From: an uncultured Methanobrevibacter sp.
GTDB taxonomy: Archaea > Methanobacteriota > Methanobacteria > Methanobacteriales > Methanobacteriaceae
Assembly (NCBI RefSeq): GCF_902784195.1
Contig: NZ_CACZTX010000004.1
Span: forward strand, 1 to 64,000
Direction of reading: 5' to 3'
DNA length: 64,000 nucleotides
Shown here: positions 6,205 to 10,432 of the stretch, one piece after another
How the letters are laid out: each line of letters opens with the position of its first letter
How positions within the stretch are numbered: the stretch's first letter is position 1
Made by a program: the position numbers and the translations under genes
The notes under the pieces: model-generated
The model's input: the letters and a program-made list of their open reading frames with translations, nothing else
Told to the model about the DNA's origin: nothing
Databases searched by the model: none

Positions 6205-6240
6205 AAAAAAAAAGAAATTATAAGTTGATTTAATCAACTT
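6205..6240 (-). terminator. Hairpin terminator overlapping the thrS stop codon
   Basis: AAGTTGAT/ATCAACTT form an 8-bp stem with loop TTA. The first bases of the stem are part of the stop codon, and a T-run follows on the minus strand. Confidence 0.75.
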
Positions 6241-8065
6241 ATTTGAAATTAATTCTTTCAGCAACGTTTCTTGGTAAAGGAAGTCTTCTGAATGGCATTC
6301 CTTCAGTTTCTTCCTTAACTGATGCGATAAGTTCATCTGCAGTCATGTCAACTTTCTCACCAGTTTTTCTTACAGTCACATTGTAATTGTTGGTTTCAAT
6401 TTCCTTGTCACCAATTACAACAATGTAAGGGATCCATTCTTTAGAAGCGTTTCTGATTTTCTTACCTACTCTGTCATCGCTGTTGTCAACATCTACACGA
6501 ATGTTTTCTGCTGCAATCTTGTCAGCCAATTCATTAGCATAGTCTAAGTGTTTTTCACCTATTGGCAAGATTCTTACTTGAGATGGGCTTAACCAAATTG
6601 GTAACATTGGAGCTTTTCCATCTTCTTTTGCAGTGTTTTCAAGTAAGCTGCAGATAACTCTTTCCACACTACCGGTAGGGGAACAGTGTAAGATGATTGG
6701 GTTTTGAGCATCTTCATTTTCATCAACATACTCGATGTTGAATCTTCTACCACTTTCAACATCTATTTGTACAGTAGGGTTTTCAATAGGTCTTCCTAAG
6801 TAGTCAATAGCTGCAAAGTCAATTTTACAGGACCAGTAATGTTTTCTTTCAGGCAAGATTTCGAGTAATAATGGTTTGCCTATTCTTTTAGCGGTTGCTT
6901 CCATCCAGTCCTTGTGTTCATCGTAGAAGTCTTTGGTTGCTCTGAAGATTGCTTCGTAGTTAACGTCAAGGTCTACACCGGTTTGAACACACATGTCCAC
7001 TTGAGCATCAAACTCTTCAAGTGCTTGTGGCATGTCAGCACAGAAACTGTGCATATCAGGCATGGTAAATGCTCTGAGTCTCTTAAGACCTACAACTTCT
7101 CCTCTTTTCTCGAATCTGAAACTGTAAGTGGATAATTCATAAACCTTAGCAGGCAAGTTTTTCCAAGTTAAGAAAGATTCACCAAGAACTCTGAATGCAC
7201 CGAAACAGCATGCAAATCTAAGCATTAAGTCTTTTTTAGTTGCGGTTTTATATTGTCTTTCACCGAATTTAGCTGCATGTTCCCTGATAGCATCATTTGC
7301 AAGGTCATAGAAGATTGGAGTTTCGATAGGCATTGCACCTAAGTCAACTACAAAATTGTAAACGTAATCTGCAAGCAAGTCACGCACTAATCTACCTTTA
7401 GGATACCATTTGAGGTTTCCAATGTCGGATGCAAGTTCATAGTCACACAATTCCTTTTCTCGCATGATCTTTACATGTGGTGGCTCTCCTTCATCACTTG
7501 CACCTTCACCTAATTCATATGCAACTAATTTTTCCAAATCTTTGCTTTCATAGTTGTATTCCTTAGGGTCAAAGGTTTCACCATCCTTGAATATTAACCA
7601 GGTGGATGGTTTTTTCTCTTCCTTTTCTTCCTCTTCTTCGACATCTGCAGTAATGGTTCTTGAAAGTTCGGATAATGGGTGTCCTTTACAAGAAATTTCG
7701 AATGCCTTATACCAACCGAATGGTACTCTAAACACATCCAATCCTTCTTCTTTAAGTGCTTCCTCAGCATCTTTCAATATTTGCACAGCTACTTTAGGAG
7801 CACCAAGGGATGAAGAAAGGTGAGCATATGGGTATAAGACGATTTTTTCTGCATTAACTTCTTCATTGGTTTTTATAACTTCAGCAACTAAGTTCTTGAC
7901 GATAGCGCTTGGGTTTTCTTCGTCCTCTTTTTCAATGGATGAGAAAACAACCAAAGCTTCATCAAAAGCTCCATTTTTTTGAGCTTCCTCTATTTCTTCA
8001 GCCACTGGAGTTTTGTTTTTTACTTGATATTTTATATAATCAGAGTGAATAAGTAAAACTCTCAT
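6239..8065 (-). CDS. thrS: Threonyl-tRNA synthetase, archaeal type
   Basis: A 608-residue class II synthetase. Residues about 1-140 ([23 protein letters not shown]) are the archaeal editing domain related to D-aminoacyl-tRNA deacylase, which removes mischarged serine. The catalytic core follows ([11 protein letters not shown] motif 1 region, FRFEKRGE near motif 2, [12 protein letters not shown] motif 3), then the anticodon-binding domain from about residue 500 ([21 protein letters not shown]). Length is normal for archaeal ThrRS. The gene is monocistronic, separated from the barnase/barstar pair by about 220 bp and ended by a stop-overlapping hairpin. Confidence 0.96.
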
Positions 8066-8254: not shown

Positions 8255-8294
8255 AAATAAAAAAAGAATTTAGATTAATAAGCATTAATCTAAA
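8255..8294 (-). terminator. Hairpin terminator overlapping the barstar-like stop codon
   Basis: A perfect 11-bp stem (TTTAGATTAAT / ATTAATCTAAA, loop AAGC). The stop codon of the inhibitor gene lies within the stem, and a T-run follows on the minus strand. Confidence 0.8.
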
Positions 8295-8587
8295 ATTAAT
8301 TTCAAATCAGGATTTTCTACTGATGCATCCTTAAAAGTAGCTATTAGGTCTTTATCAAGAATTGAACTGTCCTTGATAATGATGATTTTATCAGGCAATT
8401 CACAAAGACAATCGTATAATGCATCAAGATTTTCACCGTAATAATCTGGGAAATCCAGTTTTTCCTTAATGTATTCATGAGGATTCTCTTTCATTTCTTC
8501 CCCATACAAGACTATTTCATTCATGTTATCTATTATCTTTTTTAGTTTTCTTCTCAGTCTTCTATTTTCCAATAGTTTATTTGTCAT
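8285..8587 (-). CDS. Barstar-like ribonuclease inhibitor
   Basis: A 100-residue protein from ATG; a TTG 14 codons upstream (8629) and an internal ATG (8524) are alternatives. The internal start aligns best with the mature barstar N-terminus (MNEIVLYGEE vs MKKAVINGEQ). The diagnostic barstar segment FPDYYGENLDALYDCL is present, keeping the residues that match Tyr29, Asp35 and Asp39 of barstar, which plug the barnase active site; Trp38 is Tyr here and Glu76 is Asp. There is no signal peptide, so it acts inside the cell. It directly follows the barnase-like gene (43 nt gap), as expected of an immunity protein. The absence of a strong ribosome site leaves the exact start open. Confidence 0.88.
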   Translation of the reverse strand: MTNKLLENRRLRRKLKKIIDNMNEIVLYGEEMKENPHEYIKEKLDFPDYYGENLDALYDCLCELPDKIIIIKDSSILDKDLIATFKDASVENPDLKLILD

Positions 8588-8630
8588 AGTATCATTTCTA
8601 AGTAATTTGCATATGCAGATTACAAGCAAT

Positions 8631-9089
8631 TCAAGTTAAATGCTCAAAGCTTGCATAATGGTCTCCAGTATAGTAAACTTCAAAGTCATCAGTTGAATAA
8701 ACTATTCTTTTAGGACCTCTGCTTGATGCACCTAATGTATCAATATCACATTCCCTATACTCATGGGTTATAGGCAAGATTGATTGGCGGTTTGTAAATA
8801 TGTCCCCTCCAATGCATTTTCCAGGAGCATATTTTTCAACACTTCCACCATGCCATCCAAGAGCCTTTGCCTCTCCTTTGGTAATGTAATTGGAAGGAAG
8901 CTTGTGATATGTGCTTATATAGGCTGCAACTTCTTCCTTAGAGTCATAAGTCCCATCTTCTGTAATATTAATGTCATTTAAAGCAAGTGTAGAAGAGCCA
9001 GAGTCTGAATCATCTCCAATGCAACCGCTCACTGCAACAACAGCAAGCAAGACGATTAATACCAATCCAATAATTTTCCAATTTTTCAT
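8631..9089 (-). CDS. Secreted barnase-like ribonuclease, lipoprotein
   Basis: A 152-residue protein with a signal segment (IIGLVLIVLLAVVAVSGC) ending in lipobox VSGC at Cys23, a short acidic linker, and a barnase domain from about residue 50. TYHKLP.NYITK.EA.ALGW and GGDIFTNR match barnase of Bacillus closely. All catalytic residues have counterparts: Lys71 (K27), Arg101 (R59), Glu113 (E73), Arg124 (R83), Arg128 (R87), His144 (H102). Barnase Glu60, which helps read guanine, is Gln102. The activity expected is cleavage of RNA after G. The ATG with AGGGATTG 8 nt upstream is preferred over a TTG two codons earlier. It is the first gene of a two-gene unit with the barstar-like inhibitor. Bacterial origin by transfer is likely but not tested. 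Confidence 0.93.
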   Translation of the reverse strand: MKNWKIIGLVLIVLLAVVAVSGCIGDDSDSGSSTLALNDINITEDGTYDSKEEVAAYISTYHKLPSNYITKGEAKALGWHGGSVEKYAPGKCIGGDIFTNRQSILPITHEYRECDIDTLGASSRGPKRIVYSTDDFEVYYTGDHYASFEHLT

Positions 9090-9340
9090 TTTCAATCCCT
9101 TTTCATTTTATAAAAATATTGGTTAATCTTAATTTATTTCTTATTTTTAATAAAATTTTTTAAGTTTTTTTAAGGGATATTCTGTTTTTAAATAATTTTT
9201 CTAAAAAACTTTCTTAATCCGATTAATTTTTCTTAAAGTATATAAAATATTATGAATATAAATTTAATAGTACAATTATTGGTTTATTAAAATCAAAAAT
9301 TTCTATTATTTATTTTTATTTGCATATGAGAGGAATCTTT

Positions 9341-10432
9341 GTGGATAAGAAAAGGATATTGATCATTGTAACAGGAAGAGGTATAGGCGGAGATGCTGGT
9401 ACAGCATTGAATGTTTACAATGCGCTTGAAAAAAGAGGATATGATTGTGAAATCGCTTTGGATGAGTCCGCTCCAGGATTATTATTCAAAAAGAATAATA
9501 TAGGATGGAATAAGGTTATTATTCCACAGGCTGGAGGTCACTCTGCAACAATCATGACCACCATTAAAGCAGGTATTCGTGCTATTAGAGGTGTTCTTCA
9601 AACAAGAAAGCTTTTGAAATCCAAGAAATTCGATTTGGAATTAGGCATTCTTGGGGGAGGGGCTATTGTTGGCGCTCTTGGTGCAAAATTAGCTGGAATT
9701 CCTACTGTAAGTCTTTTGATTACTCCACTAGACACTAAAGTATGCAGTCATATTGGAACTCCAATCATACTTCCTGAAAACAATTTATTTTTAGTTGAAG
9801 ATGTTCCAGACAATATGGTAAAGTCTTTCTCTCCAGTAAGTGATAACCTTACCCACGGGGATAAGAACAAGGCATTGGAAAAGTTAAAGGAATACTCTAA
9901 AGAAGCTAAAGAGAAAAACCCTGATGCAATTGAGTTCGATGAAAACAAGCCAACCATAGTATTTTCATCCGGTTCCTCATTATTTGAAAAGACCGCTCAA
10001 GCAATCAATCAATTCTCTAAATACGCTGATAAGTACAATCTTGTTTTATGTGGTGATCCTTTGAATGAATCAGTTCTTGATTATATTGATGAAAGCAAAA
10101 TGATCAATGTTGGTTTTATTGATTGGGTAAATGACCTATTGTGCCTTGCAGACCTTGCAGTACTCACAAATGACGGATTGATGCTTCACGAAGCCATGGT
10201 ATGCAATTTGCCTGTTGTAATATTAAAAAGAGTAAAGTGGGGCAGATACCATGACATGGTTTCAATATTCAAAGGTGCAACTGTAGAGTGTGACCTTGAA
10301 GACTTGGATGAAAAGATTTTTGAAGTCATGGACAATTATGATGAGTTTGCAAAAAGAACAGATGAGTATAGAACAGCTATTTTAAATGTAGGAGACAACA
10401 TTTGCGATATAGTTGATGGTTATTTAAAATAA
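9341..10432 (+). CDS. MurG-like GT-B family glycosyltransferase
   Basis: A 363-residue protein with GT-B architecture. The N-terminal half starts ILIIVTGRGIGGDAGTALNV (Gly-rich loop) and has a hydrophobic acceptor-side segment (LGILGGGAIVGALGAKLAGIPTV). The C-terminal half carries the donor-site pattern TNDGLMLHEAMVCNLPVVIL, as in MurG-type N-acetylglucosaminyl transferases. In a pseudomurein archaeon a role in envelope polymer synthesis is plausible but not shown. The GTG start with AGAGGA 6 nt upstream is chosen over TTG (9320) and ATG (9326). It is divergent from the barnase gene and convergent with tyrA; TATA-like TATATAAAATA lies near 9240. Confidence 0.75.
   Translation: MDKKRILIIVTGRGIGGDAGTALNVYNALEKRGYDCEIALDESAPGLLFKKNNIGWNKVIIPQAGGHSATIMTTIKAGIRAIRGVLQTRKLLKSKKFDLELGILGGGAIVGALGAKLAGIPTVSLLITPLDTKVCSHIGTPIILPENNLFLVEDVPDNMVKSFSPVSDNLTHGDKNKALEKLKEYSKEAKEKNPDAIEFDENKPTIVFSSGSSLFEKTAQAINQFSKYADKYNLVLCGDPLNESVLDYIDESKMINVGFIDWVNDLLCLADLAVLTNDGLMLHEAMVCNLPVVILKRVKWGRYHDMVSIFKGATVECDLEDLDEKIFEVMDNYDEFAKRTDEYRTAILNVGDNICDIVDGYLK

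Follow-up and report, generated by a model that had tools for sequence, protein, structure and literature searches.

The window analysed here, a stretch of 64,000 nucleotides from an uncultured Methanobrevibacter sp., carries at 8631-9089 and 8285-8587 the genes of a barnase-family RNase, predicted to be exported, and of a barstar, which confirms what an earlier note on this DNA had reported. The features of the locus are as follows.

9320..10432, plus strand: glycosyltransferase-like protein, divergent neighbour, beside the pair in 13 same-genus loci; lies outside the demonstrated pair
8631..9089, minus strand: barnase-family RNase gene, 152 amino acids, ATG at 9089
8631..9089, minus strand: RNase layout, an N-terminal hydrophobic segment with a lipobox-like SGC, a short linker and the barnase domain at about residues 50-150
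9015..9089, minus strand: predicted export signal of the RNase, with the lipobox-like end ...AVSGC, based on the sequence and the pattern across copies
8285..8587, minus strand: barstar-family inhibitor gene, 100 amino acids, a basic extension of about 21 residues followed by the barstar domain with YYGENLDALYDCL
6239..8065, minus strand: thrS (archaeal threonyl-tRNA synthetase), downstream neighbour, beside the pair in 12 same-genus loci; separate from the pair

The matches of both proteins to their families are far beyond chance. The RNase matched the Pfam family Ribonuclease (PF00545) with 62.5 bits (E 5.6e-17; cut-off 24) and the barstar matched PF01337 with 49.9 bits (E 3.2e-13; cut-off 23.4), each being the sole Pfam domain on its protein, and the nearest solved structures in phmmer searches were barnase 1bse (E 2.6e-24) and barstar 1a19 (E 2.8e-8). 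Thus, the pair had been identified correctly at 8285-9089, coordinates included. The catalytic residues named before, i.e. the counterparts of K27, R59, E73, R83, R87 and H102, were all found in the window RNase, as was Gln at position 60, and the barstar contains the YYGxNLDALxD motif and the interface residues Y29, D35 and D39. A model lacking the barnase fold had been proposed as grounds for rejecting this identification; the structure predicted for a same-genus RNase copy has that fold, with a TM of 0.88-0.90 to barnase. In a read-through model across the stops of one same-genus locus both domains were well folded; the pTM was 0.52, and their relative placement could not be read.

The barstar start was assigned to the ATG at 8587 (ATGACAAATAAACT...), which is retained in nearly all same-genus loci; the TTG at 8629, opening a longer reading frame, is not conserved in the genus and was ruled out. 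The basic N-terminal extension encoded at 8525-8587 (MTNKLLENRRLRRKLKKIIDN) is conserved in barstars of Methanobrevibacter sensu stricto and absent from the Bacillus barstar. The pair occurs once in the source genome.

Distribution and genomic setting of the pair

The pair is a conserved, widespread single-copy feature of gut methanogens and not an oddity of the source genome. The RNase was found in 89 and the barstar in 87 of 151 genomes of the order Methanobacteriales, with a single match of each per genome, the lack of the pair in an incomplete genome being weak evidence of absence. In the loci of this order the barstar gene lies immediately 3' of the RNase gene. The earlier note had suggested a survey of other Methanobrevibacter genomes, and the pair was present in 16 of 19 genomes of Methanobrevibacter sensu stricto; it was also present in 56 of 66 genomes of Methanocatella, in Methanosphaera and in single genomes of two other genera (genus names after PMC13135261). 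Cultured carriers include M. ruminantium M1, which belongs to the same genus as the window, M. millerae SM9 and M. stadtmanae, and the profile survey of the 151 genomes revealed no barnase-barstar pair in M. smithii.

The two genes behave as one unit, which a genome either has or cleanly lacks. RNase genes without a barstar were found twice, once at a contig end (G087) and once in G011 (locus L084), where no barstar follows within the next kilobase, a run of N apart. In the latter RNase Arg59 is replaced by Glu, which gives it the look of a tamed enzyme. In two further genomes (G037 and G075) the RNase gene is damaged and the barstar intact, where assembly errors are possible.

The surroundings of the pair depend on the genus. 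In the genus of the window it is flanked by the divergent glycosyltransferase-like gene and thrS. In Methanocatella, rmlD immediately precedes the pair in about 54 loci; rmlA-rmlC usually come next, in some loci a transporter-like gene. There, rmlD and the barnase gene abut or overlap, and the setting is a dTDP-rhamnose operon within an envelope polysaccharide cluster. Six Methanocatella genomes without the pair (G047, G063, G068, G070, G077 and G100) have rmlD and rmlA adjacent with nothing of the pair between them, and the same arrangement is found in a pair-less Methanobrevibacter (G032). Neither in this window nor in the Methanosphaera loci that were read does the pair lie near rml genes.

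Conserved genes of phosphate or nucleotide uptake were not found next to the pair in the loci examined. Genes of uracil/xanthine permeases (PF00860) are frequent in carriers, with two in the source genome; the pair occurs without any PF00860 match in M. stadtmanae, and such matches occur without the pair in M. smithii. The association of permease and pair within Methanocatella (53 of 56 carriers vs 5 of 10 non-carriers) was judged to be confounded by relatedness and genome completeness, and was set aside.

Sequence constraint and bacterial relatives

Conservation of the active site is nearly complete across the archaeal RNases. Lys27 is present in all 89 copies, Glu73, Arg83 and Arg87 each in 88 of 88, and His102 in 87 of 88, the sole exception being a frameshifted gene. 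Position 60 is occupied by Gln in 79 of 87 archaeal copies (Glu in the other 8); of 83 bacterial copies, 79 have Glu there. The Gln, which the earlier note saw as possibly relaxing the guanine preference, is thus the usual archaeal residue, and it makes a guanyl preference of the enzyme uncertain. Among the same 83 bacterial copies (loci L091-L173) position 59 is Arg in 35 and Tyr in 42, the latter with the remaining active site intact. In the archaeal barstars Y29, D35 and D39 are present in 85 of 85, with Asp for E76 in 83 and Tyr for W38 in 81 (numbers in the alignment script equal the usual barstar numbering plus one). Five Methanosphaera loci (L008, L034, L035, L037 and L067) have a second, tandem barstar-like gene without the YYGxNLDALYD motif.

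Pairwise dN/dS of the RNase was 0.062 within its own genus and 0.077 within Methanocatella, next to 0.043 for thrS and 0.059 for rmlA, and that of the barstar was 0.10 and 0.25, respectively, all values being rough Nei-Gojobori medians over non-independent pairs. Thus, the RNase is under strong purifying selection, with a constraint like that of housekeeping enzymes and no diversification.

When bacterial and archaeal species genomes were scanned with a barnase profile, at least 576 confirmed relatives were obtained, among which archaeal matches were outranked because the first query sequence was bacterial. The best 80 of these were mostly from gut Clostridia, with a barstar behind the RNase in most. 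The earlier note, which had described the two proteins as coming from Bacillus, was too narrow in this respect; a bacterial origin as such is supported. It had also suggested a phylogeny against bacterial homologues, and in the careful tree (unrooted, 109 columns) a single branch with a support of 100/100 separates the archaeal copies, as one group, from the bacterial ones. Since archaeal copies were seen in one order only, other archaeal phyla lying outside the search, acquisition of the pair from bacteria is the simplest direction of transfer. An independent study of 2012 lists the 'putative secreted RNase (barnase)' found in M. stadtmanae among bacterial transfers (PMC3445992).

Three more specific histories were considered and rejected. 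A Clostridiales copy (L155) stood as sister of the archaeal copies in a quick tree; this relation was gone from the careful tree, so no donor is named. Transfer from Methanosphaera to Methanocatella was suggested by the nesting of the latter within the former, and monophyly of Methanosphaera (without L002) was not rejected (AU p 0.42). For a phage origin, phage records gave no match, and viral contigs gave a single one that was weak and partial.

The bacterial barstars show arrangements of their own. In gut Clostridia some are in frame with the N-terminus of unrelated enzymes, with one barstar match per such genome. The partners are QueA (L150, L132, L170 and L140), a radical SAM protein (L096 and L114), a PLP enzyme (L127), a GDSL lipase (L148), carboxypeptidase Taq (L169) and a phosphoesterase (L173), assigned by Pfam for L150, L096, L114, L127, L148, L169 and L173, by QueA sequence for L132 and L170, and by frame length only for L140. 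In the family of G152 several of about 72 sampled barstars sit in frames of more than 320 codons, and two bacterial genomes (G214 and G278) have six barstar matches apiece in one array vs the single copies of methanogens.

Predicted export of the RNase and its possible role

A hydrophobic N-terminus was found in all RNase copies checked, 87 archaeal and 82 bacterial, and the barstar of the window has no N-terminal hydrophobic stretch. Judged from this segment, the RNase is predicted to be exported in every copy, and the division proposed before, of an exported toxin and a non-exported inhibitor, is borne out at the level of sequence. The lipobox is present in 66 of the 82 bacterial copies and, among archaea, in nearly all copies of Methanobrevibacter sensu stricto, being mostly absent in other genera. 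In Methanocatella the signal mostly ends in VSA|GF, with no lipobox, and Methanosphaera copies, which also have an export signal without lipobox, look membrane-anchored or cleaved. Thus, export is the conserved property and lipid tethering is not; the surface tether that the earlier note read from the lipobox is probable for Methanobrevibacter sensu stricto and fails as a general trait.

In barnase-barstar systems the RNase is exported and the inhibitor protects the cytosol of the producer. As the RNase is intact, strongly conserved and apparently exported, and its inhibitor is not exported, the simplest role would be cleavage of extracellular RNA by the enzyme, with the inhibitor guarding the cytosol. 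We therefore propose, with a probability of roughly 0.55, that the pair consists of an RNase, surface-bound or secreted, which acts on extracellular RNA, and of a cytosolic inhibitor that serves as a safeguard, both of bacterial origin. The first gene would encode an active, exported endoribonuclease of the barnase type, probably lipid-anchored on the cell surface in Methanobrevibacter sensu stricto. Should any RNase fold before export, cytosolic barstar would plug its active site, leaving the producer unpoisoned, and the exported enzyme may steadily cleave outside RNA, coming from lysed gut microbes and feed, to yield phosphate and nucleotides, or else clear the envelope of RNA. The same logic is known from balifase of Bacillus, which shares an operon with its barstar and whose induction follows phosphate starvation (PMC5021464).

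According to the earlier note, the pair could be an acquired interspecies weapon. On this reading the surface-bound or released RNase would enter, or be taken up by, competing bacteria or archaea, and barstar would serve as the immunity protein. We consider this unlikely. The RNase of 152 amino acids has PF00545 only and no trafficking or delivery domain, it is present in one copy per genome, and it is constrained like housekeeping enzymes under strong purifying selection, with no diversifying evolution; moreover, free barnase is not known to have a route into intact cells. The idea draws on the use of barnase domains as tips by polymorphic toxins, the tandem barstar-like genes of several Methanosphaera, the toxin-first, immunity-second gene order, typical of exported toxins (PMC3482391), and the ability of archaea to deploy bacterial-type secreted weapons on bacteria (PMC12352652). 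Scavenging by a surface RNase, given in the earlier note as the alternative, fits the evidence better.

It is rather improbable that the RNase acts with or on a rhamnose-containing surface polysaccharide, e.g. as part of a co-produced surface coat. The position behind rmlD, usually before rmlA-rmlC, in the Methanocatella loci and the glycosyltransferase-like neighbour in Methanobrevibacter would agree with such a link; however, the location varies by genus, the window and the Methanosphaera loci read have the pair away from rml, relatives without the pair retain their rml genes together, and co-location by itself may be hitch-hiking. It is a similarly long shot that the pair belongs to an envelope programme of the methanogen, where the RNase, co-produced with a rhamnose-bearing surface and placed on it, would condition contact with RNA of lysed gut neighbours; if this were true, its clearest trace would be the Methanocatella operon rmlD-barnase-barstar-rmlA.

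A self-directed unit, acting inside the producer in addiction, suicide or anti-virus defence like a toxin-antitoxin module, would account for the strict pairing, for the loss of Arg59 (R59E) in the one copy next to which no barstar was found (G011) and for the damaged RNase genes with intact barstar (G037 and G075), a sequence of losses that a harmful free RNase would predict, but it has little chance of being right given the predicted export signal of every copy, the toxin gene preceding the inhibitor gene, the lack of an antitoxin DNA-binding domain in Pfam searches and of any defence-family match for the pair, and the clean absences in relatives, which speak against strong addiction.

Relation to known systems

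The proposed surface or secreted RNase with its cytosolic inhibitor resembles barnase-barstar of Bacillus amyloliquefaciens, binase and balifase in RNase fold, catalytic residues, predicted export and a non-exported inhibitor, and balifase of B. licheniformis also in the adjacency of the RNase and barstar genes. The window RNase is identical to Bacillus barnase at 52 of 96 positions and differs from it by a two-residue deletion after Trp35, Gln60 and, in this genus, the lipobox; the window barstar differs from that of Bacillus by Tyr for W38 and the added basic N-terminal extension. Lipoprotein barnases of gut Clostridia (Lachnospiraceae and Oscillospiraceae) and Aerococcus share the lipobox, in the proportion given above, and, in most, a barstar immediately downstream, and their pairs are among the nearest bacterial relatives of the archaeal one among the matches listed. 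These relatives differ in their predominant Glu60, in Tyr for Arg59 in about half, and in the many barstars or barstar-enzyme fusions of some genomes.

Polymorphic toxins with Tox-Barnase tips and Imm-Barstar have the toxin domain, the immunity domain and the toxin-first order in common with the archaeal pair, which, unlike them, has no delivery module, repeats, interchangeable toxin tip or polymorphism. From type II toxin-antitoxin modules, whose toxin acts in its own cell, the pair is set apart by the putative export signal on every RNase copy.

Zhang et al. 2012 (PMC3482391) mention 'simple barnase-barstar-like systems' of a few methanoarchaea; the window pair is a unit of the same kind. 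The putative secreted RNase that was reported for M. stadtmanae (PMC3445992) belongs to the family covered by the present survey. In the passages of these two papers that concern the pairs, they are not surveyed or placed in a tree, and neither their operon context nor their residues are analysed. The breadth, constraint, clean absences and rhamnose-operon setting of the pair are apparently unreported in the literature searched. The idea of a stray weapon in the source genome is corrected: a bacterial enzyme and its inhibitor, familiar from textbooks, form a conserved single-copy pair in major methane producers of the rumen and gut, and its natural carriers and non-carriers, M. smithii among the latter, make the role of exported barnases in nature testable.
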